This document shows positions 15,528 through 34,638 of a stretch of 64,000 nucleotides of DNA, piece by piece. Positions within the stretch are counted from its first letter, which is position 1; each line of letters begins with the position of its first letter. This DNA is from Acidobacteriota bacterium (GTDB lineage: Bacteria > Acidobacteriota > Vicinamibacteria > Vicinamibacterales > UBA8438): positions 1 to 64,000 of the forward strand of contig VXME01000042.1 in the NCBI GenBank assembly GCA_009861545.1, read 5' to 3'. The notes beneath the pieces are model-generated. The model saw nothing but the letters and a program-made list of their open reading frames with translations, was not told the origin of the DNA and searched no databases. The position numbers and the translations under genes are program-made.

Positions 15528-16724
15528 CTATTCACCCTGTTGGTTGCGCGAAGGATCGAGCCGAAACGTCACCCTGACGTACCGGTTGCGATCGTCCTGT
15601 GCAATCTCCGGCTCACTCCCGTTGAACTCACGCATGTCTCGACGCATCATCGGCCAACCTCTTCCCCGCTGCTCCATGAATCCCATGGCAAGCATGTAGT
15701 TCGCCAGAGACTCGTTGCGCGAACGGGGATGGGCACCGGCGCGAACGCTCTCCACGCTCATGTGGTTGGGTAGCGTGCCCGGGCTCGTGACGTCGACATG
15801 CCGGCCAAAGACCTCGAACAGCACTTTGGATCCCGTAATGGAGTAGTCACGGTGTACGACCGCGTTGACCAGTGCTTCCCGAATCGCCGGCCGTGGCAGC
15901 AGCGGGCGATCCTCGCGGATCAGCCCCCGATACGTCTCGAATCGCCCAAGGCCGGCGAACCAGCCGACCGCTCTTTCGACCTGCTCGTCCAGACGTCCGC
16001 CGGCATCCGCTACTTGCAGCGAATCAGAAGCCCTGTCCTCCCCGGCGTAGGCGACACACTCCACGCGGAAGCTCCGTGTCTGTGGATAACGCTGCGGGTC
16101 CCTGCCGAATGCCAGCACGCCGTAGAGCGTGGCCCGCAACGCGTCCCCGCTCTTCGTCAGGACGCCGCGATTGCGTAAATCGTCTTCCTCGGCCGGCTGC
16201 GGCTCCTCCTCGGTGTCGAGACCGAGTGCGCGCAGATAGGCGCCGAATCTCGCCAGGTCGATGTGACTCGACGTTGCAGCCAGTATCGAGCGCTCTTCGG
16301 TCAGTATGTACCCGAAGTCGTTGTAGAGATCCTGCAGCTCGCTCGGCGACGGCTCGACGCTGCTGCGTGCACGCCGCACCCACACGCGACCGTCGTAGCG
16401 CAACGGCTCGAGGCCGCGCTGCCTGGGAACCTCGATCCAGTGCACCCATCCCGACGGATCGTGATGTCTTCCACACAGCGCCGATACCGGTGCGCTGCAG
16501 CCGGTCTGAAGAAAGCTCGTCAGGCGTTCCTGAACGCTCTCCGTATCCTCTCGGACGCCCACGATTGTCTGCGAGTCGTCGACGCCCAGGATGATCACGC
16601 CGCCCTCGGTGTTCGCGAACGCGCACATCGCCCTCCCGATCCCCGGCAAATCGAGCCCGCGCTTGAACTCTGTCGAGGCGCCCTCGCCGGCCGCGATGCG
16701 TTCGAGTACGCCAAGCCACTCCAT
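15528..16724 (-). CDS. Schlafen-type AlbA_2 / HATPase protein, second gene of putative defence cassette (398 aa)
   Basis: The N-terminal AlbA_2 (Schlafen-fold) domain covers about residues 15-130: STEFKRGLDLPGIGRAMCAF, then ANTEGGVIILGVDD. The C-terminal HATPase_c_4 domain (about 270-360) carries REALVNAVVHRDYS and VTSPGTLP. Such proteins are usually called ATP-binding or divergent-AAA proteins and are common in islands; some Schlafen-fold proteins act on tRNA in antiviral responses. It starts 9 bases after the stop of the PHP-SMC gene, so the two form one transcription unit. The pair, not either gene alone, is the notable feature. Function is inferred from context. Confidence 0.85.
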   Translation of the reverse strand: MEWLGVLERIAAGEGASTEFKRGLDLPGIGRAMCAFANTEGGVIILGVDDSQTIVGVREDTESVQERLTSFLQTGCSAPVSALCGRHHDPSGWVHWIEVPRQRGLEPLRYDGRVWVRRARSSVEPSPSELQDLYNDFGYILTEERSILAATSSHIDLARFGAYLRALGLDTEEEPQPAEEDDLRNRGVLTKSGDALRATLYGVLAFGRDPQRYPQTRSFRVECVAYAGEDRASDSLQVADAGGRLDEQVERAVGWFAGLGRFETYRGLIREDRPLLPRPAIREALVNAVVHRDYSITGSKVLFEVFGRHVDVTSPGTLPNHMSVESVRAGAHPRSRNESLANYMLAMGFMEQRGRGWPMMRRDMREFNGSEPEIAQDDRNRYVRVTFRLDPSRNQQGE

Positions 16725-16733
16725 CCTGAGATC

Positions 16734-19505
16734 TCAGAATCCGTATTTCAGACGCCGGAGGCGAAACGCCTCGTCGCCGCCGTCGACGGTCTGCACGATG
16801 GCGTCTCGAACGGCCGGCTCTTCGATGGCGCCAGCGCGGGCCACATGGCCACGGCTTGCGGTAGCTTCCAGGTGAATGACCTGATCCGCATCGCCGTTCA
16901 CGACGATGTTGGCGTTGTGCGTTGCGACAACGATCTGCCGGCGTCCCTTGAGCCGCTTGAGGGCGGGGAGCACCGTTCCAAAGAGGAACCTGTTGTCCAG
17001 CTCATCCTCGGGCTGATCGATCACCAAAGGACGATCGTCATTCGTCTCCAGCACCAGAGACAGCAACACGCTCACCCGCTGACCGCCGGAGAGGTCGTCC
17101 AGCCGCCGGTAGCTGCCGTCGTCCATCCTGAGCTGGATCAGATAGCGGTCCCGGCATCGAAGGGCCGCCAGTTCTCGTCTCTTCGCGGCGGAGAGACACT
17201 CCTCGAAAGTCGCCTCGACAGCGGGACTCATGTCAACCTTCCACAACTGCCCGGCCGTGAGCCCTTCGAGCAGTTCCTCCGGTGAGGGTCGCTGTGCGTC
17301 TTTCAGCTCGTTCCACCACCGCGTGATGCCCTTTTGCCTGAATGCCTTCAGGAACTTCTCCAGCGGATCGCGACGACCGGCGTCGACCCGCCGCACGGAT
17401 ATCCGACCACCGAACTCCGTCCGAATCACTTGGATGACTCGGTCGAACGCTTGCCGTTGCTCATTCACGAGGCCCTGCCGGTCGGCAAGCAGCGTGGCGA
17501 ACGAGCGCTTGGCGGCGATGCACTTGCTGTGCACCTCCTCCAAGTTCGCCTGATAGCTCGGCACAAGAGACGCCTGACGGTTCAGCGCCTGAAACTCCCT
17601 GATTCTTGCCCCGTCCAACCCGCGAGCCGCCAGCTTTTGGTCGACCTGCTCTCGTACGGCTCGCTCGTGGGCGCTCAACGCTTTCGCGAACGAAGCAGAT
17701 GCCGCTTTCGCGCCGGCCAGGTCATCGTTCACGGAGCGAAGCAAGCCGCGAATGCGCTCCCAGCGCGTCTGAAGGTCGTCTTTCGGCTCGCTCAGATTCG
17801 CATCCCGCAACACATCCGCTACGTGGTCATCGATCTCCGGCAGTTCGAACCCGTCCACGGCGCCCTGCACGCGTCCTGCCTCTGTCGTCAGCTCCTCCGT
17901 GAGTTTCTCGACCTCTCGCCAGCGGCGAACGTCGCGCGAGGCGCGGTGCAGCTCGTCTATTCCAGCATCCGAGAACGCGTCGAGCTCCTCGGCCGCCTTA
18001 CGAGTCCGCTCGAGCGCCTGCTCCGCGTCGGCAAGCTCCTCGTCGAGCTTCGCGAGGTACCTGGCCGCACGAGCCAGTTCCTCGTCCAGTGCATTCAAGC
18101 GCCCGTCACGCACCTGAATGTCCTCCCGCTCCGAGACCACTAGGCGCGCCAGAACGTCCTCCACGGCCTCGGGTTCCTGAGCCAGCCGCTGCAATTCGCT
18201 CTGCGTATGGAACACGGCGGGCCACCGCAGGCGCGGCGACTCGGTCGGATCCTGGCCGGGACAGTCCAGCGTGACCTCCGGCGATCCGCCGAGAAAGCCG
18301 TCGCGACCCCGCTTTTCGACCTGCTTCCTGAGACCGTCGTCTTGAGGCAGGCTTGCTTCCACGTGCACGCGCAGACCATCGAGCAACGTGCTCTTGCCCG
18401 TCATGCTGCCGCCGATGATGCACGTCAGGTCCGGGCTGAGCTCGAAACGACTCTCTGAACGGCTCCCACCGCCGCCACGAAAGAACGACGCTCCCCCCGT
18501 TACCGTGACGGACTTGAGCCACGGTCGCGCGTTCAGGGTCACGTCGGGGAGATTGGAAATCTCGGTCAGTTCGCCGTCCGCGCCCCGTTGGTACGCGATC
18601 CTCATCCGAGAGTCGCTTGCAATGAAAGCCTGCCGTAGCGCCTCGATCCGTGGATTGGCGAGCTTGAACCACGTGTGTCTATGCCCGACGTCGCTGATCG
18701 AATAGGCGTCGCTCCCGTGGAAGAACGCCTGGCGGTATCGGGTCATGCCATCCGCCAGCCACGAGCGATCCTTCAAGGTGTCTTCGGTCAGCTTGTTGTC
18801 ACCGAGCTCGAGACCCGCCAGCTCGACATGTGGAAAGTCCCGCAACACCTGGGCCTTTTGTGCGCCCAGCAGACCCTTGTCGGTCTCGATATGGGGTGCG
18901 AGCGTGAGGTAGTTCCACTGCCTCCCGCCGTCTCGCTCCCTGGGCGACTCCTTGCCGTGAAAGGCCCGCAGCTCGTTGAACGCGTCGCCGGCATCCTTGT
19001 TGGACACCTGAAGCTCGTTGCCGAGCCACGGAGTCACGCCGCCCATGGCCAGGTTGAAGGCCCTGAAGTAGCGGTCACGCCCGACTTCCGGATCGAACAG
19101 GAACAACAGATGCAGCCCTCGACTCCCCTGCCTGAACGACGGTTCGAAGCCCGGGAACACCGCGTACACCTTGTCCCGGAACGGCGTCCCGTCGTCGTCG
19201 TCGCCGCTGCTCCACTCTTCCACGATCCGCCACACCGCGCTGGCGGCGGCGGCACTCCCCATGCGAGGCGAGTGCGGCGTGATGCCGAGCACTCGTACCC
19301 CTCGCTCCGCCGCACACTGCAAGAACCGTCGAGCGTAGGAGGTGAGCGTCTCTTCCGATTCTGGAGACCCGCTGACGCCGGGCGGCAGCTTCGCCCGCCC
19401 GCCGGGACGATCGTCGATCGTGTGGATGTGGAGGTCCGCCTTGAACCAACGCGCCCCGGGGACCTCCCGCCGCCACCGGTCGGTGTCTCGTCGCACGAAC
19501 GACAT
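16734..19505 (-). CDS. PHP-domain/SMC-like ATPase, first gene of putative defence cassette (923 aa)
   Basis: An N-terminal PHP phosphoesterase-like domain has DLHIHT at 24-29, TPHSPRM near 76, FPGFE near 118 and HGSDAYS at 263-269, the metal-binding His/Asp pattern. Then follows a split SMC/Rad50-like ATPase: Walker A GGSMTGKST (365-373), a long Glu/Arg/Ala coiled coil (about 430-720), signature LSGGQR near 805, Walker B LVIDQPEDELDN near 827 and the switch histidine in VATHNAN. It resembles proteins annotated as TrlF-family AAA-like ATPases. ATG 19505 is chosen because the PHP domain begins just after it. Expected role: DNA- or RNA-bound ATP-driven sensor with an attached nuclease or phosphatase, acting with the AlbA_2 partner. 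Confidence 0.85.
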   Translation of the reverse strand: MSFVRRDTDRWRREVPGARWFKADLHIHTIDDRPGGRAKLPPGVSGSPESEETLTSYARRFLQCAAERGVRVLGITPHSPRMGSAAAASAVWRIVEEWSSGDDDDGTPFRDKVYAVFPGFEPSFRQGSRGLHLLFLFDPEVGRDRYFRAFNLAMGGVTPWLGNELQVSNKDAGDAFNELRAFHGKESPRERDGGRQWNYLTLAPHIETDKGLLGAQKAQVLRDFPHVELAGLELGDNKLTEDTLKDRSWLADGMTRYRQAFFHGSDAYSISDVGHRHTWFKLANPRIEALRQAFIASDSRMRIAYQRGADGELTEISNLPDVTLNARPWLKSVTVTGGASFFRGGGGSRSESRFELSPDLTCIIGGSMTGKSTLLDGLRVHVEASLPQDDGLRKQVEKRGRDGFLGGSPEVTLDCPGQDPTESPRLRWPAVFHTQSELQRLAQEPEAVEDVLARLVVSEREDIQVRDGRLNALDEELARAARYLAKLDEELADAEQALERTRKAAEELDAFSDAGIDELHRASRDVRRWREVEKLTEELTTEAGRVQGAVDGFELPEIDDHVADVLRDANLSEPKDDLQTRWERIRGLLRSVNDDLAGAKAASASFAKALSAHERAVREQVDQKLAARGLDGARIREFQALNRQASLVPSYQANLEEVHSKCIAAKRSFATLLADRQGLVNEQRQAFDRVIQVIRTEFGGRISVRRVDAGRRDPLEKFLKAFRQKGITRWWNELKDAQRPSPEELLEGLTAGQLWKVDMSPAVEATFEECLSAAKRRELAALRCRDRYLIQLRMDDGSYRRLDDLSGGQRVSVLLSLVLETNDDRPLVIDQPEDELDNRFLFGTVLPALKRLKGRRQIVVATHNANIVVNGDADQVIHLEATASRGHVARAGAIEEPAVRDAIVQTVDGGDEAFRLRRLKYGF

Positions 19506-19545
19506 CACGGCCTCCGTTGTCGCGACGAACACACCACGATCGACG

Positions 19546-21339
19546 TCATTGGCGCTCGGACTCGAGCTGCGCGAGGTAGAGCTGCTCCAGCCGCTCCACC
19601 GCTTCGCGGAAGCCCTCCGGGTCGACGAACGTGTCGGGGCTGTACTCCTGCCCCGGCTCGTACTTGTCGTGCAGGCCGTACTGCCCGCCGTGGGCGGCAA
19701 CCCAGACGTCGACGTCCAGCGCCTTCTGCTTGCGGAACGTCTCGGCGAAGTCGTCGGCCACGCCGGGGTAGGTGGGATCGACGACGAGCTGCTTGCCGGG
19801 GTTGATGGTGGCCATGTTGGCGATGGCCACGTTGTAGTCGCGTCCGCCCTCGCTGACCGTCATCAGGTAGCTGGAGCTGCCGGCGGTGTGTCCCGGACTC
19901 AGCATCACGGTCAGGCGCGCGTCGCCGAGCTGCAGCACCTCGCCGTCCTCGATGACGCGGTCGACCGACACGGGCCGGAACGACTGCCGGCCGCCGAAGT
20001 GCGGATCGCTGAAGCCCCCGTCCTCCAGCACCGGCGCGTCCTCGGCCGTCGCCCACATCTCGGCCCCGACCGCCTCCTTGATCTGGGCCAGCGCGGCGGT
20101 GTGGTCCCAGTGCGCCTGCATCTGCAGCAGCACCCTGACGTCCTCGAGCCGGAACCCGAGCGATTCGATGTTGTCGCGGATCAGCGGAATCGAATCCTCG
20201 AGCCCGGTGTTGATCAGGAAGTGCCCCTCGTCGGAGGTGACGAGGAACACGGCCAGATCGTAGGTGCCGACGGCGTAGAGGTTGCCGATGACCCGGTGCC
20301 CGGGGAACGGGCGCGCCCAGCCGTCCGGCTGCGCGGCGGCGGTCGCGGCGGCCTCCGCTTCGTCCACGCGAGCGCCGCCCAGGATCCCCGGCATGCTGTA
20401 GTTCCCCTCGTGACAGGCGTACTCGTACAGCGGCTGGTCGGTCCGCTGCATCGGGATGGACGCCGTCCACGGACGCGTCCAGGTCTGCGGATCGGTGACG
20501 GTGTAGGTGTACTCCAGCGTGTCCGCGTCGACGCGGGTGAGGCGTTCGACCAGGGTCATGTCCGGGGTCGTGCCCCGCCATCGGCGCTGGTCGTAGAAGT
20601 TCCCGGTCTCGATGACCAGGGTGTCGCCTTCCCAGCGGCCGCGCGAGTCGCCGGACCACTGCCGCATGTGCTCCGGCAGCGGCGGGCGGCCGTCGAGCGG
20701 GACCACGCGCACGGTATGGACCATCTCGGTCACCAGCACCACCTCGTCCGGGGTCTGGAAGACCTGCAGGTTCTGGTTGTAGCCGCCGGGGGTGATCGGC
20801 GGGCCGGCGTTGAAGCCGAGGATGCAGCGATCGTAGGCGCTGCGGTCCAGCCACGAGTCGGCCGGGTGGTCACGCCGGTAGGCGCGACTGGCCTCCGTGC
20901 GCTCCCGGCCCTCCGGCGACATCTCCGGGAGCCGGCCGTTGGGCGGATCGACGATGAGCGACGTGCGCCGCGTGCCGACGGTGCGCGTGCCGCGGTCGAG
21001 CCAGAAGTTGTTGTAGAAGCCGGGGGCACCGTCCTCCCCGCGGTCCACGCTCTCGGTGGCCGTGGTGCGCCGGGCGGCCCGGTTGGCGAGCTCCGTATTG
21101 CGGTCGACCACCTCCTGCTCCAGGTTGGCGGCCTCTTCCGCGGTCAGAAAAGCCTGATCGCCCAGCTCCTCCGGGCGTTCCAGCGGCGTGATGGTGCGAA
21201 AGTCCCAGATGCCCTGCAGATCCGGATCCCCCCACCCCGTCCGCAGGTCGGTCTGGGCGGTGGACGGAGCCGCCGGCAGCAGCACGAGTGCGGCCAGCAC
21301 GGCCGCGGCGCTCACGGACGCGAATACCCTATGGCGCAT
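19546..21339 (-). CDS. Secreted WGDPDLQG/EYACHEGN-family protein fused to a B3-type metallo-beta-lactamase domain (597 aa)
   Basis: Signal peptide 1-28, then the full family domain (about 30-330): GWGDPDLQGIWDFRTITPLERP, C172 in DRC, and YEYACHEGNYSM with C309. From about 340 a complete metallo-hydrolase of the subclass B3 pattern follows: GNLYAVGTYDLAVFLVTSD, INTGLED, QAHWDH at 408-413, SPGHTAGSSSY with H484 and WVAAHGG with H550. The first zinc ligand (His116 in standard numbering) is Gln408, as in GOB-type enzymes; the other ligands are present. It could hydrolyse beta-lactams, lactones or another ester or amide in the periplasm. GGGGGGA lies just upstream of ATG 21339. It is divergent from the next paralogue. 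Confidence 0.88.
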   Translation of the reverse strand: MRHRVFASVSAAAVLAALVLLPAAPSTAQTDLRTGWGDPDLQGIWDFRTITPLERPEELGDQAFLTAEEAANLEQEVVDRNTELANRAARRTTATESVDRGEDGAPGFYNNFWLDRGTRTVGTRRTSLIVDPPNGRLPEMSPEGRERTEASRAYRRDHPADSWLDRSAYDRCILGFNAGPPITPGGYNQNLQVFQTPDEVVLVTEMVHTVRVVPLDGRPPLPEHMRQWSGDSRGRWEGDTLVIETGNFYDQRRWRGTTPDMTLVERLTRVDADTLEYTYTVTDPQTWTRPWTASIPMQRTDQPLYEYACHEGNYSMPGILGGARVDEAEAAATAAAQPDGWARPFPGHRVIGNLYAVGTYDLAVFLVTSDEGHFLINTGLEDSIPLIRDNIESLGFRLEDVRVLLQMQAHWDHTAALAQIKEAVGAEMWATAEDAPVLEDGGFSDPHFGGRQSFRPVSVDRVIEDGEVLQLGDARLTVMLSPGHTAGSSSYLMTVSEGGRDYNVAIANMATINPGKQLVVDPTYPGVADDFAETFRKQKALDVDVWVAAHGGQYGLHDKYEPGQEYSPDTFVDPEGFREAVERLEQLYLAQLESERQ

Positions 21340-21473: not shown

Positions 21474-22445
21474 ATGCGCTGCCGATTCCTCGTCGCCGGG
21501 TTCGTGCTCCTCATGATGCTGACCACTGCGCTGGCCGTGCCCGCGACCGGCCAGACGCGGGACGGCGCACCGGAGGGTTGGACGGCGCCCCGAACCCCGT
21601 GGGGTGACCCCGATCTGCAGGGGCAATGGAACAGCCAGACGTCGACCCCGCTGGAGCGCCCCCTCGAAGGACGCCTGGCCGAGACCGACAACCTGTCGCC
21701 GGGAGAAGCGCAGGCCATCGAGGACGCCAACCGCGCCGCCTTCGACCTGCCGCCGCGGGAGGGCAGCGTCGGCAACTACAACGCGTTCTGGCGGGACGTC
21801 GGCACGGCACTCACCCGCACGTCCCTGATCGTGGATCCGCCGGACGGCCGCATTCCGCCGCTCTCGGCCGGGGGTGAGGCACGCATCGCCGCCGAACGTG
21901 CCGAGCGGAGTCAGCGCGGCCCCGCCACGTCTCCGGACACCTACAGCGACCTGAGCCAGTGGACCCGCTGCATCTCGCGCGGCTGGAACGGCATCGGGAG
22001 CTGGTACAGCAGCAATTACCAAATCTTCCAGGTGCCGGGCTACGTCGTCGTCTACCAGGAGCTGATCCACGAGCCGCGGATCATCCCGCTCGACGGCCGC
22101 CCGCATGTCGCGGAATCGATCCGCCAGTGGCTCGGCGATTCGCGCGGCCACTGGGAGGGTGACACGCTGGTCGTCGAAACCACGAACTTCACCCCGAAGA
22201 CCAACTTCCGCGGGTCGCGCGACACCCTGCACTTGACCGAGCGCTACACGCGCGTCAACGACGACACCATCGACTACCGGTTCACCATCGACGACCCGCA
22301 CACGTTCCAGCGGCCGTGGACCGTCGTGCGGCCGATGAATCGGATCACCGACCGCGTGTCGATCTTCGAGTACGCGTGCCACGAGGGGAACTACTCGATG
22401 GAGGGCATCCTGGCCGGCGCGCGGGCCGAGGAACGGGAGCGTTGA
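21474..22445 (+). CDS. Secreted WGDPDLQG/EYACHEGN-family protein (323 aa)
   Basis: Single-domain member of the family, exported (signal to about residue 27, PATGQ). Conserved blocks in order: TPWGDPDLQGQWN, STPLERP, RTSLIVDPPDGRIP, TRC, NYQIFQVPGYVV, HEPRIIPLDGRPH, QWLGDSRGHWEGDTLVVETTNF, ERYTRVNDDTIDY, FEYACHEGNYSMEGILAGAR. No function is established. The two family cysteines are present and would be oxidised in the periplasm. AGGAGG precedes ATG 21474. The phosphotriesterase homologue follows 46 bases later on the same strand. Confidence 0.85.
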   Translation: MRCRFLVAGFVLLMMLTTALAVPATGQTRDGAPEGWTAPRTPWGDPDLQGQWNSQTSTPLERPLEGRLAETDNLSPGEAQAIEDANRAAFDLPPREGSVGNYNAFWRDVGTALTRTSLIVDPPDGRIPPLSAGGEARIAAERAERSQRGPATSPDTYSDLSQWTRCISRGWNGIGSWYSSNYQIFQVPGYVVVYQELIHEPRIIPLDGRPHVAESIRQWLGDSRGHWEGDTLVVETTNFTPKTNFRGSRDTLHLTERYTRVNDDTIDYRFTIDDPHTFQRPWTVVRPMNRITDRVSIFEYACHEGNYSMEGILAGARAEERER

Positions 22446-22491: not shown

Positions 22492-23658
22492 ATGACCAGA
22501 AAAGGCGGGACCGGAAACGATGCGCGGGCGGTCAGGATTGGCCGCCGAGAGGCCGTGCGCCTGCTGGGAGCCGGAGCAGGAATCGGCGTGGCCACCGCCT
22601 GGGCACGGGGTGCGAGCCCGCGGGCGTCCGGTAGACAGGCAGCGGGCCAGGGGGCGTCCTCCATCACGTTCCCGGACGGAGCCGTCGTCAGGACAGTGCT
22701 CGCCGACGTCGATCCGGTGGAGATCGGCTCGGGGGCCACGCTGTTCCACGAGCACCTCTCGTTCGACTACGCCAGCCCGCCGGCCGAGCCGCGGCGGCCC
22801 GGCACCCCGGCTCCCCCGGCCCCGACGAACGAAGAGATGGTCGACCTGCTGGTCGAGGAGCTGCGCATGGCCGCCTTCGACGGCGTGAGCTGCATCGTCG
22901 ACTCGTCCATCGGGCCGCGCACGAATCAGCAGCTCGAGAACCTCACCGCCATGGCGACGCGCTCCGGCGTCCACGTCGTGGCCGGCGGCAGCTACTTCCT
23001 GCAGCCGCGCTATCCGGAGGAGATAGCCGGGCTGGACGAGGACGCGCTCGCGGCGCACCTGATCGAGCAGGCGGCGGGCGAGCGGTGGGGAGCGCTCGGT
23101 GAGGTGGGCAGCTCGTTCCCCGCCATGCACGATGAGGAACGCCGGATGATCCGCGCCGTCAGCAAGGCCCACCGCCGGACGGGGCTGCCGATCTTCACCC
23201 ACGTCCCGCACGAGAGCTGCCCTTCGTGCGCCATCGAGCAGATCGACCTCTACGAGTCGGCGGGCGTCGACATGGGGCACCTGTGCATCGGTCACCTGTC
23301 GACCATCCAGCGGTCGGACGACCCGGGCTGGGAGACCCACAAGGAGATCGCCGGCCGCGGCGCGTTCATCGGCTTCGATACGGTCGGCCACCGCATGAGC
23401 GCGTCGTTCATCCCCGAGCGGGAAAAGGTGGACATGGTGCTCAACGCCCTGGAGGCAGGCTACGAGGACCACATCCTGCTGTCGTCGGACTTCGCCAACA
23501 CGGCGCAGATCAAGGCGAACTGGGGCAACGGCTTCTCCACCGTCCTGGTGCAGTTCGTCCCGAAGCTGCGGTACTACGGGGTGCCGGACGAGACGATTCG
23601 CAAGATCCTGGTCGACAATCCGCGGCGCTGGCTGGCGCACGTGCCGGGCGCGGCGTAG
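22492..23658 (+). CDS. Phosphotriesterase-family amidohydrolase, Tat-exported (388 aa)
   Basis: Binuclear-metal hydrolase of the amidohydrolase superfamily. A twin-arginine-like leader (IGRREAVRLLGAGAG) suggests folded export. Metal ligands visible: HEH at 86-88, the histidines in FTHVPHE and IGHLS, and Asp in LLSSDFAN. The bridging lysine of bacterial phosphotriesterase is replaced by Glu (GALGEVGSS), as in the phosphotriesterase-homology proteins and some lactonases, so lactone or carboxyl-ester hydrolysis is as likely as phosphotriester cleavage. The stop codon abuts the stop of the convergent ABC ATPase gene with no gap. It probably shares a promoter with the preceding family gene. Confidence 0.85.
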   Translation: MTRKGGTGNDARAVRIGRREAVRLLGAGAGIGVATAWARGASPRASGRQAAGQGASSITFPDGAVVRTVLADVDPVEIGSGATLFHEHLSFDYASPPAEPRRPGTPAPPAPTNEEMVDLLVEELRMAAFDGVSCIVDSSIGPRTNQQLENLTAMATRSGVHVVAGGSYFLQPRYPEEIAGLDEDALAAHLIEQAAGERWGALGEVGSSFPAMHDEERRMIRAVSKAHRRTGLPIFTHVPHESCPSCAIEQIDLYESAGVDMGHLCIGHLSTIQRSDDPGWETHKEIAGRGAFIGFDTVGHRMSASFIPEREKVDMVLNALEAGYEDHILLSSDFANTAQIKANWGNGFSTVLVQFVPKLRYYGVPDETIRKILVDNPRRWLAHVPGAA

Positions 23659-24366
23659 CTACCCCCGGGCGTCGTCGCTCTCGATGCGGCCGTCGACGAG
23701 GCGGACGAGGCGGCGGGCGCGCGCCATGACCCGCGGATCGTGCGTCGAGAACAGGAAGGTGACCTGCTGCTCGCGGTTGAGGGTCTCCATCATCTCGAGC
23801 AGCGCCTCGGCGGTGGCGGAATCGACGTTGGCGGTCGGCTCGTCGGCGAGGACGATGGCGGGACGGGCCGCGATCGCCCGCGCGATGGCCACGCGCTGCT
23901 GCTGGCCGCCGGACAGCTCCGACGGCCGCCGGTGCTCCATGCCCTCCAGCCCCACCTGGGCCAGCAGCGCCATGACCCGCTCCCGGCGCTCCGCTTCGGC
24001 GACTCCCTGCACCGCCATCACGATCTCGGCATTCTCGTAGGCGCTGAGGACCGGCAGCAGGTTGTAGGCCTGGAACACGAAGCCGATCCGTTCGCGGCGC
24101 AGGCGGCTGAGCTCCTTGCGGGTGAGGGCCCCGAGGTCCGCGCCCTCCAGCCGCACGGTGCCCGACGTCGGGGTGTCGAGGGCGCCGATCAGGTTGAGCG
24201 CGGTGGTCTTGCCAGAGCCCGACGGGCCGCTGATGGCCGTGAACTCGCCGGCTTTCACTGTCATCGTGAGGCCGCGCAGCGCCTCGACGTGCTGATCACC
24301 TTGCCGGTAGATCTTCCTGACGTCGTCGAGCGCGACCACGGGAGTCTCACCGCCGCCACCGTTCAT
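23659..24366 (-). CDS. ABC transporter ATP-binding protein, LolD/MacB type (235 aa)
   Basis: Complete nucleotide-binding subunit: Walker A GPSGSGKTT, Q-loop in VFQAYNLLPVL, signature LSGGQQQR, Walker B IVLADEPTANVD, and the switch His in FSTHDPR. It pairs with the two FtsX-type permeases encoded just upstream, 66 and about 1430 bases away. This class moves lipoproteins or hydrophobic compounds from the inner membrane or periplasm rather than importing solutes. GGAGG lies nine bases before ATG 24366. Confidence 0.92.
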   Translation of the reverse strand: MNGGGGETPVVALDDVRKIYRQGDQHVEALRGLTMTVKAGEFTAISGPSGSGKTTALNLIGALDTPTSGTVRLEGADLGALTRKELSRLRRERIGFVFQAYNLLPVLSAYENAEIVMAVQGVAEAERRERVMALLAQVGLEGMEHRRPSELSGGQQQRVAIARAIAARPAIVLADEPTANVDSATAEALLEMMETLNREQQVTFLFSTHDPRVMARARRLVRLVDGRIESDDARG

Positions 24367-24432
24367 GACGCACTGCCTCCGCAAGTGTCGCGCCGGATCT
24401 TCTGGATGCCTGGTCGCGATCTGGACCTGGAC

Positions 24433-25680
24433 CTAAACCAGCCGAATCGTCTCCACCGGATCGGCCTGTCCCGCCCGCCAGGCGGGATAGACCCCCGACA
24501 GCAGGATGGCGACGAGCGCCGAGATGCCGATGAGCGCAACGTTCTCGCCGTAGATGCCGACCCGCATGACCGTCGACATGCCGACGCCGGCGACCTCCAT
24601 CTGGTCCGCCGGGATCAATCCCGATATGTCGATGCCAGTCGACGCGAGATAGAGATACGGTCCGATGGTGACCGCGGCGGCGGCGGTCAGGCCGATCACC
24701 GCCAGCCAGGCGCTCTCGATCATGATCAACCGGAAGAGCTGCCCCGGACTGAAGCCGACGGCGAGCATGATGCCGAACTCGCGCAGGCGCTCCATCACGC
24801 TGACGAAGAGCGTGTTGAAGATCCCGGCCGCCACGAGCACGGCGAGCACCAGCATCATGACCTTGGCGCCGCCCACCTTCATGGCGATGAAGACCGCCAG
24901 GTCCGGCTGCAGCTCGTGCCACGCCAGCACGGCGACGTCCGCCGGGGCCGCCGCGCCGAGGGCGGCGACCGCGGCGTCGCTGGCGCGCTGGTCGTCCACG
25001 AAAGCCGCGATCTGGATCGCCTCGTCGGGCGCGAAGCCGACCACCTCCCGCACCGCGTCGATGGGCAGCAGGCAGATGCCCGCGTCGACGCTCGGCGAGC
25101 CGGTGCGCACGATGCCGGAGACGCGCGCGAGGGCGCTTACGATCTCGCCCTCCTTGTCGGTCAGCGTGTAGACCAGCTTCGACCCGAGCTCGACGTCCAG
25201 GTTCGAGGCGAGCTTCTCGCCCAGGATGATGCCGCCGTCGGTCGACGAGCCGAAGAACTCGCCGTCGACTATGGCCTCGATGAGCGACAGCGTCTCGTCG
25301 TCCTCCTGCTCCGGGGAGACCGCGATGAAGCCGGCGCCGACGTTCTCGCGCGCGGTCGCGAGCATGGTGAACCCGGTGATGCGCTCGACGACCCCGATGA
25401 CGTGGGGGTCGTCCGCGGCCAGGCGCTTCAGAGTATCGGTCCCCTGCACGGTGCGCGTCAGCGTGGGGGTATCGAGATACTCCGGATGCTGGATCGTCAC
25501 GTGCCCGGCGCCGAGCCGGGCCGCCAGTCGGATCATGTCGGCCCAGTTGCGGTCCTGCATCGCCATCATGATGACGGCGAGGAAGACGCCGAAGACGATC
25601 GCCGACAGCGTGATGTACGTGCGGCGGCGATTGCGCCACAGGTTGCGCCACGCCATCGTCGCGAGACTGCTGCCCTTCAT
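24433..25680 (-). CDS. FtsX/MacB-type ABC permease (415 aa)
   Basis: N-terminal helix after MAWRNLWRNRRRTYI, a periplasmic MacB_PCD-like domain (about 45-270), then three C-terminal helices (VMMLVLAVLVAAGIFNTLFVSV, LAVIGLTAAAAV, ISALVAILLSGVYPAWRAG) ending in the family's ADPVETIRLV. It is the second of two permeases; 29% or so of residues recur in the upstream one by eye, including the MAWRN-x2-RNRRRT leader, so they form a heteromeric LolCDE-like exporter. Confidence 0.88.
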   Translation of the reverse strand: MKGSSLATMAWRNLWRNRRRTYITLSAIVFGVFLAVIMMAMQDRNWADMIRLAARLGAGHVTIQHPEYLDTPTLTRTVQGTDTLKRLAADDPHVIGVVERITGFTMLATARENVGAGFIAVSPEQEDDETLSLIEAIVDGEFFGSSTDGGIILGEKLASNLDVELGSKLVYTLTDKEGEIVSALARVSGIVRTGSPSVDAGICLLPIDAVREVVGFAPDEAIQIAAFVDDQRASDAAVAALGAAAPADVAVLAWHELQPDLAVFIAMKVGGAKVMMLVLAVLVAAGIFNTLFVSVMERLREFGIMLAVGFSPGQLFRLIMIESAWLAVIGLTAAAAVTIGPYLYLASTGIDISGLIPADQMEVAGVGMSTVMRVGIYGENVALIGISALVAILLSGVYPAWRAGQADPVETIRLV

Positions 25681-25798
25681 CGCGCTGCCCTCATCATTCT
25701 CTCCACCGCATCCCTGCTTGCTTCTCTTCTACATTCGCCGGGGGCGCAGCCGGCCGCGACGAGTCGCTTCGCGGCCCCGTGGCCGTTCCGGCCGCGCA

Positions 25799-27013
25799 TC
25801 ACTGATGCCGCATCGCCTCCACCGGGCTGATACGGGCCGCCTTCAGCGCGGGATAGATCACCGCCAGAAGCACCAGAATGACCAGGTTCGCGGTCGGGGC
25901 CGCGAACGTGGCCGGTGTCACCGCCGCCCGCCAGACCGTCGCGATCGTCGCGCTCAACACTTGCACGCCGCCGAGCGCGCCGGTGTCGATGCCGAACTCC
26001 ACCAGGTACCACAGCGTCGGGACGGCGAGCGCCACGCCGACCGCCAGGGCGAGGCCGGTCTGCAGCCCGCTCTCCACGAAGATGAGCCACACCACCTGCC
26101 GCGGCTCGACGCCCAGCGCCTTGAGGACGCCGAACTCGCGGATGCGCTCGAACACCGCCATCAGCATCGCGTTCAGGATGAGAATCGCGACGACGATGTA
26201 GATCACCGCCGAGACGATCTGCATCGAGGCGTTGGCGGAGTCCAGATAGGTGGCCAGCGTCGGCAGCAGCGTCCGCCAGGACCGCGTATCGAGGCCTGGG
26301 GCCAGCCCCTGCACCGCCTCGACGGCCGCCGGCAGCTCGACGTCGTCCGGCTTGCGCACGACAATCCGGTGCGCGCCCGACGGCAGCACGAACAGCTCGC
26401 GGAACGCCGCCTCGTTGAGAAAGACCGTGGAGCGGTCCACGCCGTCGCTCACGCTCTGCAGGATCCCGCGCACCGCGTAGAGATCGTTCGCGATGCTCCC
26501 GTCGGCCGCCTGGCTGAGAACGATGAGCTCCCCGCCGATCTCCAGGTCGAGCGAGCGCGCGAGCCGGCGTCCGACGACGACGCCGTACGGATCTTCGGCG
26601 TCGAGCCAGGCGCCCTCGGCAAGGCGCGTCGAGATGGCGCTGACGCCGGCGTCGGCCCGCACGTTCAACCCTTGCAGCGACACGCCGGCCGCCGACACCC
26701 CGGCCGCGGCGAGCCCGCCGCCCACGAGCCGCGCACTGGCCCGGAACCCCGCCGCCTCCAGCGCCGGAATCAGCGTGTCGACGTCATCGATGCGCGTGTA
26801 CAGCGACGGATCGTCGAGGTAGGTCGGCGCGTGGACCTGCAGGTCGCCGATCTCGACGTCGATCACCGTCCGCTCCATGTCGGCCAGCAGGCCCTGGAGC
26901 ATAGCGAACCAGACGACCATGGCGAAGAAGCCGAACGCCATCGCGGCCACCGTGACGACGGTGCGCCGCCGGTTGCGGCCGATGTTCCGCCACGCCATCT
27001 TCAGGATGCGCAT
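25799..27013 (-). CDS. FtsX/MacB-type ABC permease (404 aa)
   Basis: Same architecture as the downstream permease: MAWRNIGRNRRRTVV leader helix, large periplasmic domain, three C-terminal helices around VIYIVVAILILNAMLMAVFERI, ending YPALKAARISPVEAMRHQ. It is the first gene of the transporter unit; the order is permease, permease, ATPase. Cargo unknown; the position among secreted-protein genes suggests envelope maintenance or export. Confidence 0.88.
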   Translation of the reverse strand: MRILKMAWRNIGRNRRRTVVTVAAMAFGFFAMVVWFAMLQGLLADMERTVIDVEIGDLQVHAPTYLDDPSLYTRIDDVDTLIPALEAAGFRASARLVGGGLAAAGVSAAGVSLQGLNVRADAGVSAISTRLAEGAWLDAEDPYGVVVGRRLARSLDLEIGGELIVLSQAADGSIANDLYAVRGILQSVSDGVDRSTVFLNEAAFRELFVLPSGAHRIVVRKPDDVELPAAVEAVQGLAPGLDTRSWRTLLPTLATYLDSANASMQIVSAVIYIVVAILILNAMLMAVFERIREFGVLKALGVEPRQVVWLIFVESGLQTGLALAVGVALAVPTLWYLVEFGIDTGALGGVQVLSATIATVWRAAVTPATFAAPTANLVILVLLAVIYPALKAARISPVEAMRHQ

Positions 27014-27094
27014 CGAGGAGGCCTCGCTGCTCTCGTTGCCGCGCGGCGTTTCACAGCGGGCTCCCAGGGAATCCTGGTCGACGCACGGGAACCG

Positions 27095-28144
27095 TCAGCG
27101 CGCCGCCTCCTCGTCGCCGGCGGCCTCCCGCTCCTCGGTCCGGGCGCCGCTCAGCACGTTGACGATGCTGTAGTTGCCTTCGTGGCAGGCATACTCGAAG
27201 AGGGACTCGTCGGTCCGCCGCAGCGGCAGCTCGCCGGACCACGGGCTGGTCCAGCGGGTCGGGTCCTCAACGGTGAACTCGTAGCGGAGCGTGTCGGCGT
27301 CGACCCGGGTGAACCGCTCGATGATGCGCAGGCTCTGGGTGCGCCCCCCGTTGGCGGCGCGGATGCGGACCACGTCGTTGCCGAACGACGAGCCCTCCTC
27401 GCTGCGGGCGATGTTGCGGGTCTCGACGACGAGCGTGTCGCCCTCCCAGCGGCCGCGCATCTCGCCCAGCCACTGCGGGATCGGTCGGCCGAGGCGCGGG
27501 CGGCCGTCGAGCGGAATGATGCGGGTGTCGTGGATCATCTCGACCTGGATCGCTACGTACTCGGGCGTTTGCAGGATCAGGTAGTTGTTGTTGTAGCCGG
27601 TCGGCAGCATGGGCGGCCCCACCGACCACAGCATGCAGCGGTCGTTCAGATCCATGTCGGTCCAGGTGTCGGCCGGACCGCGGGCGCTGCGCGCGGCCAG
27701 GCGCGCGTCCTCGTCCTGCTGTGCTTCCGGCGTCAGCGGCGGCAGGCGCCCGTCGGGCGGATCGACGACGATCGAGGTCCGGCCGGTAGAGGTGACGCCC
27801 CGATCCAGCCAAAAGTTGTTGTAGAAGCCGGGCGCGCCGTCCGCGCCGACGTCCACGCTCTCGGTGACCTCCGTCCGGCGGGCCGGCCGCGCCAGCAGCT
27901 CCGCGTTGCGGTCGACGACCTCCTGCTCCAGGTTCGCCACCTCCTCGGCGGTCAGCAGCTCTTGCCCGGCGAGCTCCGCCGGGCGCTCGAGGGGCGTGAT
28001 GGTCTTGCTGGTGTAGGTGCCCTGCAGGTCGGGATGGCCCCACGGCGTGCGCGGCGCGGCCTCCTGGCCGGTCGCCGACAGCGGCGCGAGGGCGACGGCG
28101 GCGAGCACCACGGGGACTGCGGTGACGAGAGAGCGGACCTTCAT
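27095..28144 (-). CDS. Secreted WGDPDLQG/EYACHEGN-family protein (349 aa)
   Basis: Signal peptide to about residue 27 (SATGQ), then family blocks: TPWGHPDLQGTYTSKTITPLERP, GAPGFYNNFWLDRG, TSIVVDPPDGRLPP, DRCMLWSVGPP, NNYLILQTPEYVA, DTRIIPLDGRPRL, RGRWEGDTLVVETRN, ERFTRVDADTLRYEFTV, FEYACHEGNYSI. It is closest to the N-terminal domain of the metallo-hydrolase fusion at 19546 (shared EEVANLEQEVVDRN and GAPGFYNNFWLDRG), so these two are sister copies. AGGAGG lies six bases before ATG 28144. It is divergent from the LVIVD gene. Confidence 0.85.
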   Translation of the reverse strand: MKVRSLVTAVPVVLAAVALAPLSATGQEAAPRTPWGHPDLQGTYTSKTITPLERPAELAGQELLTAEEVANLEQEVVDRNAELLARPARRTEVTESVDVGADGAPGFYNNFWLDRGVTSTGRTSIVVDPPDGRLPPLTPEAQQDEDARLAARSARGPADTWTDMDLNDRCMLWSVGPPMLPTGYNNNYLILQTPEYVAIQVEMIHDTRIIPLDGRPRLGRPIPQWLGEMRGRWEGDTLVVETRNIARSEEGSSFGNDVVRIRAANGGRTQSLRIIERFTRVDADTLRYEFTVEDPTRWTSPWSGELPLRRTDESLFEYACHEGNYSIVNVLSGARTEEREAAGDEEAAR

Positions 28145-28265
28145 CTTTCGCCTCCTGGAGCTGCGTGACACTGCGCCCATGCTACGCCCTCGGGAAGTGG
28201 GCCGCAACCGCGGGCAGCGCCTTCGGGTAACCTGACCGCACGACCCACTGAACCGGAGGCCGACG

Positions 28266-29729
28266 ATGAACCGCTGGATTCCCCTGTCGTTCGCCGCCCT
28301 GCTCGCCGTTGTCGCCGCTGCCGGTAGCGCCCGCGCGCAAACTGCCGGCACGGGCCACGGCGAGGAGGCCTTCAACACCCGGCTCGTCGGCATGCACGAC
28401 CTGCAGGCGCGCTCCGCCTACCAGCCCCTGCCGGTCCGGCAGGGGGAACGCCGCATCGCCTACGTCGGCCACCACGCGGGGGAGCGCCTGAACCCGCTGA
28501 CCGGCGCCGTCGAACCCAACGGCACGTCGGTCGTCGACGTCACGGATCCGGCGGGCCCCGTCTACCTGGCCCACATCCCGGCCACCGGCGGCGCGAGCGG
28601 CGCGCAAATGGTTCAGGTGTGCGCAGGCAACCGGCTACCGGGAGGAGTTGCCGGCCGCTTCTACCTGCTGCGGTCGAACGGCAACCGGAGCCACGAGGTC
28701 TGGGACGTCACCGACCCGGCCGGCCCCGCCTTCGTGCGGACGGTGGCCGAGATGGGCCGCACGCCCACGGGCGAGCAGCACACCCACAAGAACTGGTGGG
28801 AGTGCGACACCGGCATCGCCTACCTGGCCGGAACCGTGGACGGCTGGCGCGCACCCCGCATCCTGCAGATCTTCGACCTCGCCGACCCGGCCGCGCCGCG
28901 GCGGATCCGCGACTTCAGCCTGCCCGGCGTCCAACCGGACGCGAGCGGCCCCATCCCGGGCGGCTCCGGCGTGCACGAGGCGGTCCGGTTGGGGAACCGC
29001 GTCTACCTGGCGTACGGCACCTCCAACAACGGCGCGGTGCAGATCCTCGACCGCGAGAGACTGCTGAACGGCGATCCGGACGCCGCGGCGCCGCTGGCGG
29101 CGAGCCCGGCCGGGCTCGCCTACCCGCAGATCGGCCGCATCGACCTGCCGTCGTTCTGGGGCGGGCACACCGCCATGCCGCTGCTCGGCGTGGAGATTGC
29201 CGACTACGCCGGCAACCGCGACCACGCCACCCGCGACTTCCTGTTCGTCGTCTCCGAATCGGTCGCCAACGCCTGCCAGGAGACACGCCACGTCACGCTC
29301 ATGCTCGACATCACGGACGAGGCCCATCCCCTCCCGATCGGGACCTTTCAGGTGCCGGAATCGAGCGGCGGCTTCTGCGGCCGGGGCGGCCGTTTCGGCC
29401 CCCATGCCCCCCAGTGGTCCATGGAGCCGCCGTTCTACGGGAAGCTGATGGTGGTCTCGTGGTTCAACGCCGGGGCCCGGGTCATCGACGTGCGCGACCC
29501 GTTCGACATGCGGGAGGTGGCGTACTACATTCCCGCCACCACCGACCGGACGGATCAGCGCTGCGCCGTCATCGACGGCGTCGAAGACTGCCGCGTGGCG
29601 ATTCAGACGAACAACGTGGAGGTCGACGACCGCGGGCTCATCTACCTGGCGGACCGCGCCGACACCGGCCTGCACATCGTGGAGCTGACGGGGCCGGCGG
29701 GAGCGATCGTCGAGAACGCTCGGGACTGA
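28266..29729 (+). CDS. Secreted LVIVD-repeat beta-propeller protein (487 aa)
   Basis: Signal peptide (to about 24, SARAQ) then repeats with the LVIVD pattern: TSVVDVTDPAGPVYLAHIP, HEVWDVTDPAGPAFVRTV, LQIFDLADPAAPRRIRDF, TLMLDITDEAHPLPIGTF, ARVIDVRDPFDMREVAYYIP, and a final LHIVEL. Such propellers are surface or periplasmic and mostly unassigned. Several Cys (VCAGNR, WECDTG, CQETRH, FCGRGG, RCAVIDGVEDCR) suggest disulfides. GGAGG sits eight bases before the ATG. It ends at a hairpin shared with the convergent family gene. Confidence 0.85.
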   Translation: MNRWIPLSFAALLAVVAAAGSARAQTAGTGHGEEAFNTRLVGMHDLQARSAYQPLPVRQGERRIAYVGHHAGERLNPLTGAVEPNGTSVVDVTDPAGPVYLAHIPATGGASGAQMVQVCAGNRLPGGVAGRFYLLRSNGNRSHEVWDVTDPAGPAFVRTVAEMGRTPTGEQHTHKNWWECDTGIAYLAGTVDGWRAPRILQIFDLADPAAPRRIRDFSLPGVQPDASGPIPGGSGVHEAVRLGNRVYLAYGTSNNGAVQILDRERLLNGDPDAAAPLAASPAGLAYPQIGRIDLPSFWGGHTAMPLLGVEIADYAGNRDHATRDFLFVVSESVANACQETRHVTLMLDITDEAHPLPIGTFQVPESSGGFCGRGGRFGPHAPQWSMEPPFYGKLMVVSWFNAGARVIDVRDPFDMREVAYYIPATTDRTDQRCAVIDGVEDCRVAIQTNNVEVDDRGLIYLADRADTGLHIVELTGPAGAIVENARD

Positions 29730-32548: not shown

Positions 32549-33529
32549 CTACCTGATCCGCACCCGCGCCGCGCCGACGTCGACGCCGGTCATCAGCTCG
32601 AGATTGCGTCCGTTGCCCTCGTGGCAGGCGTACTCGAAGAGCATGTGGCCCTCGGGGGCCCGTCTCAGGGCGTTGAACTCGATGGTCCACGGCTGCGTGA
32701 ACACGTTCGGATCCTCGATGGTGGCGGTGTACCGAATCGTGTCCGCGTCGACGAACGTGAAGCGCTCGACGACATGCAGGTCGCCGCTGTGGAAGACGCC
32801 GTGCCCGCTTGTCAGCGCGCTGGCCGGCGCTCCCTCCGGCGGCGCCCCGTGCCCGACCGGCCAGGTGTTGGCGGTGAAGTTGGTGACGTCCACCACGAGC
32901 GTGTCGCCCTCCCAGTGCCCGCGCGAATCGCCCATGCCCAGGCGGATGTCGGGCGGCAGGTGCGGCCGGCCGTCGAGCGGGATGTACCGGTAGAGGTGGT
33001 TCCACTCGTAGAGCATGATCACGTAGCCGGGAATCTGCAGGATCTGGTACGTGTTGTAACCGACCGGCAGATGCGCCCGCGGCAGCGCCGACGGCAGGCA
33101 CTTGACGCGCGGGTCCAGGTGGGCCAGCTCTTCCTGCCGCGCCATGATCTCGCCGCGCTGCTCGGCCGCCCACGGCTGCAGCGGCACCCTGCCGTCCGGC
33201 GGGTCGATGATCATCGGGCGCGTAATGCGCCCGGGGCGCGGCGGCGCATCCGGATCGGGCTCGAAAAAGCGCGAGAACGCGGCGCCCTGGCCGCGATTGA
33301 CGCCCTCCGCCTGCCGCCATTCGTCGCTCGCCCGCGTCTCGAGCGGCTGCGACGCGCCCGGCAGGAAATAGCCGCGGAAGTCCGGATCCCCCCACGGAGT
33401 CCGGGGCGGCTCGAAGTCCACCGGCTCGCCCCCCTGGGCATGGACCGAAGCGGGCAGCGCGGCCGGGCCGAGCAGGGCGAGCGCCGCAATGGCGCCAACG
33501 GCGACGAAACCTCTTCCACACTGGATCAC
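32549..33529 (-). CDS. Secreted WGDPDLQG/EYACHEGN-family protein, GTG start (326 aa)
   Basis: GTG at 33529 is the start: GGGAGG lies six bases upstream, a signal peptide follows (GFVAVGAIAALALLGPAALP) and GTGA overlaps the stop of the upstream cytochrome-fused paralogue by four bases, so translation is coupled. Blocks: TPWGDPDFRGYFLPGASQPLETR, MIIDPPDGRVPLQPWA, VKCLPSALPRAHLPVGYNTYQ, YRYIPLDGRPHLP, RGHWEGDTLVVDVTNF, ERFTFVDADTIRYTATIEDP, FEYACHEGNGRNLELMTG. It is more divergent at the N-terminus than the others. Confidence 0.85.
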   Translation of the reverse strand: MIQCGRGFVAVGAIAALALLGPAALPASVHAQGGEPVDFEPPRTPWGDPDFRGYFLPGASQPLETRASDEWRQAEGVNRGQGAAFSRFFEPDPDAPPRPGRITRPMIIDPPDGRVPLQPWAAEQRGEIMARQEELAHLDPRVKCLPSALPRAHLPVGYNTYQILQIPGYVIMLYEWNHLYRYIPLDGRPHLPPDIRLGMGDSRGHWEGDTLVVDVTNFTANTWPVGHGAPPEGAPASALTSGHGVFHSGDLHVVERFTFVDADTIRYTATIEDPNVFTQPWTIEFNALRRAPEGHMLFEYACHEGNGRNLELMTGVDVGAARVRIR

Positions 33530-34638
33530 CGCGCACCTCCCTCCGGCGTCTCCAACGCCTGCAGGATGAAATCGACGCAGTCGTAGTCGAGAAGCTGCAG
33601 CCCGGCCTCCATGCGGCGATACAGCGGCATGCGCATCGTCCACGGGCGGGTGAAGACCTCCGGGTCCTCGATCGTCACCTCGTAATCGAGGTGATACGGC
33701 GTCACCGGCGTGTAGCGCTCGACCACGTGCAACCCGTCGCTGTGAAAGTTGCCGGCCGCGTCGAACCAGGCCCGGCCGTTGAAGTGGGTCGTGTCGACCA
33801 CCAGGGTGTCGCCGTCCCAGTGACCGCGCGAGTCGCCCATCCAGAAGTCGTTCGGCAGCGGATGCGGACTGCCGTCGGTGTAGATGATCCGTACTACGTG
33901 CGCGAACTCGTAGGTGATGACGACGTGATCCGGCGTCTGCAGGATGCGGAACGGGAACGGCAGATAGGTGACGCGCGGCACCCCCGGCAGGAAGCACTGC
34001 CGCAACGGGTCCGCGGTGAGCCGGTTCGCGTAGTTCTCACGCTGCTGCGCCGCCGCCCACGGCTGGTACGGAATCTCGCCGCCCTCGACCACGCCGAGAC
34101 CGGCCGGGACGCCGTCCTGCGCGTTGTGCGCCCGGACGTCCCAGGATGCCGCGTTGAGGGCCTGCCAGATCCCGTTCAGGTCGGGCTGCCCCTCGGGCGT
34201 GCGCGGGCCGTCGTATTCGCTGGTCTCGACCGCCTCGACTGCTTCTGCCGCTTCTGCCGCTTCTGCCGCTTCTGCCGCGCTCTCCTCCGCTTCGGCCTCG
34301 ACCTCCTCCGAAGGAGGCGCCGGCGGGGCCTGCGGCGAGGTCAGGACCTCCAGGTAGGCGGCCACCTGCCGCACCGCATCGTCGTCGAGCTCGCGGCGCG
34401 AGATGGGCGGCATCTGGCCGTACCCTTCACGGACCACGGCGAGGACGTACTCGGCGTCGAAGCCGAAGGGGACCAGGGCGGGAGCGATGTCCCCGCCGCC
34501 CGCCGCGCCATGGCAGAACTCGCATACCTGCCGGTAGGGCTGGGCGCCGGGTGGATCCTGCGCCGCCGCGGCGGACAGCGGAACCACCATGGCCAGGGTG
34601 ACGGCCAGCACCGCGCCCGGTGCGTATCGAGAGACCAT
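33526..34638 (-). CDS. c-type cytochrome fused to a divergent WGDPDLQG-family domain (370 aa)
   Basis: Signal peptide (to about 26), a one-haem cytochrome c domain (CEFCH at about 39-43; YGQMPPI supplies the Met), a Glu/Ala linker (about 110-145) built from 9-base repeats, then the family domain starting GPRTPEGQPDLNGIWQAL. Blocks kept: RQCFLPGVPR, FRILQTPDHVV, RGHWDGDTLVVDTTHF, ERYTPVTPYHLDYEVTIEDP. The final motif has decayed to LDYDCVDFIL: the cysteine stays, His-Glu-Gly-Asn are gone. This links the family to periplasmic electron transfer. It is the first gene of a three-gene unit with 32549 and 32079. Confidence 0.87.
   Translation of the reverse strand: MVSRYAPGAVLAVTLAMVVPLSAAAAQDPPGAQPYRQVCEFCHGAAGGGDIAPALVPFGFDAEYVLAVVREGYGQMPPISRRELDDDAVRQVAAYLEVLTSPQAPPAPPSEEVEAEAEESAAEAAEAAEAAEAVEAVETSEYDGPRTPEGQPDLNGIWQALNAASWDVRAHNAQDGVPAGLGVVEGGEIPYQPWAAAQQRENYANRLTADPLRQCFLPGVPRVTYLPFPFRILQTPDHVVITYEFAHVVRIIYTDGSPHPLPNDFWMGDSRGHWDGDTLVVDTTHFNGRAWFDAAGNFHSDGLHVVERYTPVTPYHLDYEVTIEDPEVFTRPWTMRMPLYRRMEAGLQLLDYDCVDFILQALETPEGGAR
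34241..34276. repeat. 9-base tandem repeat, four perfect copies
   Basis: GCTTCTGCC repeated four times without interruption, encoding Ala-Glu-Ala units of the linker between the haem and family domains of the 33526-34638 protein. A three-codon period means copy changes alter linker length without breaking the frame. Confidence 0.9.

Follow-up and report, generated by a model that had tools for sequence, protein, structure and literature searches.

A predicted secreted chain joining an expanded family domain to a subclass B3-Q metallo-beta-lactamase in part of one Vicinamibacterales genus

The window, a stretch of 64,000 nucleotides from contig VXME01000042.1 of an Acidobacteriota bacterium, contains a gene in which a domain of the "EYACHEGN" family appears to run into a metallo-beta-lactamase. 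This locus raises the question of whether two exported proteins have genuinely become one chain, how the joining happened, and what such a chain could do. As listed in Table 1, the gene reads without a break from ATG to TGA, and the same fusion recurs in a second genome of the same genus. Hence the one-chain fusion of a family domain with a complete B3 enzyme, as claimed in an earlier note made from the bare letters, holds. The sole signal peptide of the fused chain is supplied by the family half, and its predicted Sec type, read by eye, agrees with the export assumed in that note. In the following, G000 denotes the genome of the window, G183 and G185 are two genomes of the same genus, and g5 and g10 are other genera.

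Table 1. Features of the fused gene and of its divergently transcribed neighbour (window coordinates; aa numbering of the 597-aa chain)
Feature	Position	Strand	Basis
Fused gene, 597 aa	19546..21339	-	Single open frame; G185 has an equally long gene of like architecture
Predicted Sec signal peptide, aa 1-28 (..STA/QT)	21256..21339	-	By eye; model helix 2-19
"EYACHEGN" family domain, aa 29-330	20350..21255	-	Alignment A1 (40 members); predicted calycin-like barrel plus N-terminal helical part
Predicted barrel strands, aa 190-300	20440..20772	-	DSSP on model
Fusion joint EAEAAATAA/AQPDG, GCC-rich	20335..20361	-	Compared with G183, G185 and g5 relatives
Subclass B3 metallo-beta-lactamase domain, aa 336-597	19549..20334	-	NF033105; LRA-12; Foldseek 5aeb
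QAHWDH: Gln116 (aa 408), His118 (410), Asp120 (412), His121 (413)	20101..20118	-	Alignment A2; ligands assigned as in LRA-12 (PMC5531557)
His196 (aa 484) of SPGH	19888..19890	-	Invariant in A2
Asn220-Met221 (aa 508-509)	19813..19818	-	Same pair in LRA-12 and GOB-18
His263 (aa 550) of AAHGG	19690..19692	-	Invariant in A2
Second family gene, stand-alone, divergently transcribed, adjoining the fused gene	21474..22445	+	Syntenic in G183 and G185

The enzyme half has close references among solved structures. Residues 341-595 matched the subclass B3 model NF033105 with 291.3 bits (cut-off 240) over model positions 2-257 of 257, and the nearest solved chains were LRA-12 (E 4.4e-72), a Chitinophaga enzyme, GOB-18 and FEZ-1, with 6n36 among the best solved relatives. 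The predicted model of the whole chain gave fold Z values of 34.9 to FEZ-1, 34.5 to LRA-12, 34.2 to GOB-18 and about 31 to L1, its overall range being 29-35 to B3 structures versus about 19 to B1 enzymes. A Foldseek comparison of the predicted model with 5aeb gave E 6e-30 and TMt 0.88. The full B3 fold that had been read from the letters is thus reproduced by the model, which superposes on FEZ-1, LRA-12, GOB-18 and L1. By alignment, the zinc ligands are Q-H-H (116, 118, 196) and D-H-H (120, 121, 263), in agreement with the earlier reading of a GOB-type Gln as the first ligand and the others intact. Position 221 is Met509 and is preceded by Asn508, as in GOB-18 and LRA-12. A predicted fold without zinc geometry would have been at odds with the earlier reading; the predicted fold is that of B3 enzymes, and the set of ligand residues is complete in the alignment.

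Judged from these aligned residues, the enzyme half is of the B3-Q (QHH/DHH) type, which is an already-known kind. B3-Q enzymes carry Gln at position 116 while the remaining five ligands are canonical; they have been known since GOB, and at least six separate origins have been reported (PMC10318434, PMC7381538). The score against the blaGOB family model NF012101 was 228 bits, below its cut-off of 560. In the tree, the enzyme half belongs to a B3-Q clade of 77 rows (SH-aLRT 98), apart from the LRA-12/GOB-18 pair, which groups with the H116 Chitinophaga enzyme. The hosts of the clade are Vicinamibacteria, Bryobacterales-type Acidobacteriota and many Gammaproteobacteria. Judged from record titles and sample names, its members are mostly marine or sponge-type MAGs. 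When G000 was searched with the enzyme half at E 1e-30, the fused gene alone was recovered; hence the fused form probably must carry that activity alone.

For the family half, no sequence relative was found in Pfam, NCBIfam or the PDB (the profile of alignment A1 included for the PDB), and our literature search found no description of the family. The domain was modelled with AlphaFold2 on alignment A1 (40 members), giving a pLDDT of 82 and a pTM of 0.77. The model consists of a helical N-terminal part followed by an antiparallel barrel of about eight strands. Among solved structures it comes nearest to proteins of the FABP/CRBP type that bind fatty acids, retinol and related ligands (VIA Z about 10, rmsd about 3, about 115 residues), and one superposition of the predicted barrel gave a VIA Z of 10.3 with an rmsd of 3.6 over 120 aligned residues. 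Foldseek with the barrel gave a best E of 1.9e-3 (prob 1.00), the other matches having higher values. On this model, a calycin-like (FABP/lipocalin) barrel is the likely, though uncertain, fold of the family domain; because of the modest E-values (0.002 and up), only the label "calycin-like, predicted" is used here. Arg171-Cys172 and Cys309 are invariant, and the cysteines would fit a disulphide in an exported protein. As stand-alone members stop just past the EYACHEGN helix, the fused copy represents a complete domain.

The family is large. About 94 copies are present in G000, and 20 other genomes, from Acidobacteriota and also from Gammaproteobacteria, hold from 12 to at least 107 copies each. 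It should be further pointed out that family members at five loci of G000 (L084, L070, L076, L099 and L103) lack the EYACHEGN motif and have ends such as FRCVEFVEDL, and that this sub-group still has one Cys near the same place. A second fusion type within the family was also observed: the reverse-strand gene at 33526-34638 joins an N-terminal cytochrome c domain (PF13442) to a divergent member without the EYACHEGN end.

The route to the fusion becomes visible when relatives of the enzyme half are compared. A search of 193 genomes of the class recovered orthologues of 64-97% identity across family f1 and a few others, and nearly all of those with flanks read are stand-alone genes bearing their own signal peptide. 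The fusion occurs in two genomes, G000 and G185 (CATQHX010000009.1, a Vicinamibacterales MAG). The G185 chain is likewise 597 aa long, and at the protein level its halves share 91% and 95% identity with those of G000. Unfused neighbours in the same order and on the same strand are found in G183 (enzyme half 97% identical, spacer 276 bp), in three g5 genomes (spacers 112-441 bp) and in G182 of g10 (spacer 16 bp). In the unfused layout, the stop of the family gene is followed by the spacer and then by the lactamase, whose separate signal peptide finishes in A-x-A, ahead of the Q at which the mature enzyme starts. The fused genes lead from the Ala-rich family tail (GAAGCGGAGGCCGCC...) directly into the mature enzyme start (CAGCCGGACGGC...), and the native mature N-terminus of the enzyme is kept.

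Both the Ala-rich family tail and the AAA/Q cleavage site of the enzyme are GCC-rich, so that a deletion between short repeats explains the lost stop, spacer and second signal peptide. At the level of these gene comparisons, a deletion with loss of the lactamase's own signal peptide is shown. The spacer of G183 contains a second copy of the 3' end of the family gene, which is a sign of an unstable stretch. A missed stop or a frameshift, named in the earlier note as what could undo its reading, is ruled out by the same chain in G185 together with the unfused pairs, in which the stop is present. Assembly error and chance were rejected as well, as the same 597-aa fusion stands in G185.

Apart from these two genomes, no fusion was found among the 193 genomes of the class, in which flanks were read at the 30 best loci and the rest were judged by open-frame length. 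A draw of 396 genomes of the phylum, with few candidates scored per genome, contained no fusion except that of G000, and when about 85,000 species were scanned, the 80 best loci contained none except that of G185. The survey of homologues proposed earlier thus returned G000 and G185 and no further case in the loci examined, and the fusion is confined to part of one genus. No other C-terminal partner was found among the approximately 94 family members of G000. We found no literature on a B3 fusion, and none of the papers retrieved describes this domain arrangement.

Both halves of the fused chain are kept by purifying selection, as their low dN/dS shows. Between G000 and G185, dN/dS was 0.11 (dS 0.23) for the enzyme half and 0.12 (dS 0.39) for the family half, values close to those of unfused relatives. 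No consistent branching of G000, G183 and G185 emerges from the enzyme region; in the family region G000 pairs with G183 (support 97), and the flanking genes lean likewise. From these sequences, one fusion followed by sorting or exchange and two parallel deletions are both possible.

The link between enzyme and family is not limited to the fused gene. Counting family genes up to 900 bp from the enzyme in 80 loci gave 13, every one on the enzyme's strand and none opposite, where about one would be expected from the copy numbers. Farther out in the same loci there are 10 family genes, six on the same strand and four on the opposite one. By position within loci, the same-strand excess near the enzyme has a p of about 7e-5, which serves only as a guide as the loci are related. 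The family-neighbour state changes at least eight times on the tree, and from lineage to lineage the family gene next to the enzyme is a different paralogue (about 26-47% identical). Such a neighbourhood, recurring across lineages and paralogues, indicates an association older and wider than the fusion. Most stand-alone members of the clade have no family neighbour. No conserved operon was found round the stand-alone enzymes, whose neighbours are mixed (MFS, radical SAM, MacB/FtsX and TonB receptors), and no other neighbour gene family stands out in the 80 loci.

Some further gene arrangements were observed around family members. On contig C88 of G000 (23455-25461; L006, L029), another metallo-beta-lactamase-fold gene adjoins a same-strand family gene. 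The region 22492-28393 of the window carries a phosphotriesterase-like hydrolase, an ABC ATPase and two MacB/FtsX permeases amid family genes, an order shared with G183 and G185. The reverse-strand stretch 15528-19535, which follows the fusion directly on its downstream side, carries a SLFN_AlbA_2 protein and an AAA/SMC-type ATPase that is TrlF-like by eye. This pair is present in G000 and G183 and missing at the syntenic place in G185 (L188 6761/6769), and it resembles a defence-type cassette that has been either inserted or lost.

What, then, could the fused chain do? We consider it reasonably probable that it is a deletion-made secreted chain in which a barrel that binds a ligand or an envelope part is tethered to a di-zinc hydrolase. 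The starting point would have been a same-strand pair with the family gene first and an exported B3-Q metallo-beta-lactamase second. A deletion between the GCC-rich repeats would then have removed the first stop codon, the spacer and the second signal peptide, and the product would be one secreted chain of an intact calycin-like barrel, a flexible Ala-rich joint and an intact di-zinc hydrolase. This chain would act outside the inner membrane. There, the C-domain would open a lactam ring, most likely that of a beta-lactam, or a related cyclic amide or ester by the B3-Q mechanism, with the water held between two zinc ions performing the ring opening, while the barrel would hold a hydrophobic ligand or a cell-envelope part, keeping the enzyme near. 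The full-chain model (pTM 0.50) gives no defined relative placement of the domains, and the stretches 311-319 and 331-341 around the joint have pLDDT below 50. The earlier proposal was that the family domain binds or modifies the substrate. Binding is suggested, though only suggested, by the predicted ligand-binding-type barrel and the recurrent neighbourhood; modification is not borne out, the closest solved folds being binding proteins.

The main rival is a passenger role of the barrel, in which an ordinary B3-Q beta-lactamase had its signal peptide swapped by a chance deletion and the family domain serves export only. Even with fixation in two species, the fusion may be such a neutral deletion: GC-rich repeat ends ease deletions, the G183 spacer is unstable, and the fusion is limited to part of one genus. 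We nevertheless hold this explanation to be somewhat doubtful, since the family half is intact, its full C-terminus included, and its dN/dS is as low as that given above, and since unrelated lineages repeatedly show the enzyme beside family genes.

Another explanation concerns the substrate. The clade is mostly of marine or sponge-type MAGs as judged from record titles, and the neighbouring genes share no common pathway, so the enzyme half might cleave another cyclic amide or ester, for example a natural product of marine or sponge origin that the barrel would carry as substrate. Open-ocean GOB-like homologues are widespread without antibiotic pressure, which makes another role possible, and other roles have been suggested for them (PMC5895761). 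However, among the substrates proposed in the earlier note (beta-lactams, lactones or an unknown ester), any of which the sequence would allow, beta-lactams are by analogy the default for a B3-Q member, because tested B3-Q enzymes degrade them (PMC7381538). Resistance to beta-lactams is conferred by the B3-Q enzymes that have been assayed elsewhere (PMC7381538; for LRA-12, PMC5531557), and all LRA-12/GOB-18 active-site residues that were checked are present here; we thus regard a role other than that of a beta-lactamase as unlikely. Low probability is likewise given to the speculation that the family has expanded as exported carrier barrels, of which many would be paired with a secreted enzyme. 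The fusion would then unite carrier and hydrolase in one chain, and the substrate of the clade would be a marine lactam or lactone brought by the carrier, not clinical-type beta-lactams.

It is quite improbable that the N-terminal domain acts as a block or gate at the active site, which would make the fusion a regulated, mostly inactive form. In CSR-1 and other B3-RQK enzymes, an N-terminal stretch does cover the active site and truncation activates the enzyme (PMC7381538), but here the joint is predicted to be flexible with no defined contact, and the mature enzyme begins at its native N-terminus. An assembly or sequencing artefact that skipped the stop and spacer, for which the draft state of the MAG and the GCC repeats at the joint could speak, is extremely improbable and already refuted by the chain in G185, which differs by many synonymous changes.

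The preferred reading, a secreted barrel tethered to a di-zinc hydrolase, can be compared with known systems. LRA-12 (PDB 5aeb, a soil-metagenome B3-Q enzyme) shares QHH/DHH, Asn220 and Met221 at 42-43% identity over the domain, but its solved chain has no fused domain, and it branches apart from the fused-enzyme clade with GOB-18 and the Chitinophaga enzyme. GOB-18 (PDB 5k0w, Elizabethkingia) shares Q116 and Met221 at 39-40% identity, but is a single domain on a separate branch. Because of these separate branches, Gln116 probably arose independently, as reported for B3-Q enzymes (PMC7381538). Marine GOB-like homologues are B3 enzymes with 38-44% identity to GOB-1 and, reportedly, the GOB residue at position 116; they come from metagenomic reads and are likened here by description, and the available text of that report mentions no fusion (PMC5895761). 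The calycin barrels of FABP, CRBP and SAHS proteins (4azq, 5xn9, 5z4g) are the nearest solved folds to the predicted barrel, at about 10-18% identity and with no sequence relation. Unlike them, the family domain has an extra N-terminal helical part, a C-terminal EYACHEGN helix and two invariant cysteines, and is exported and bacterial. CSR-1 and SPR-1 (B3-RQK) likewise carry an N-terminal extension, which may play a part in activity (PMC7381538), but this extension is a short loop rather than a domain, and the metal ligands differ (HRH/DQK).

The enzyme chemistry of the fused chain is thus ordinary, and what is new is the domain arrangement. Standing beside its unfused neighbours, the fusion ties a very large uncharacterised exported family to well-understood enzyme chemistry, and it makes binding and hydrolysis testable together in one molecule. 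It also bears on why GOB-like enzymes abound in the sea without clinical antibiotics.
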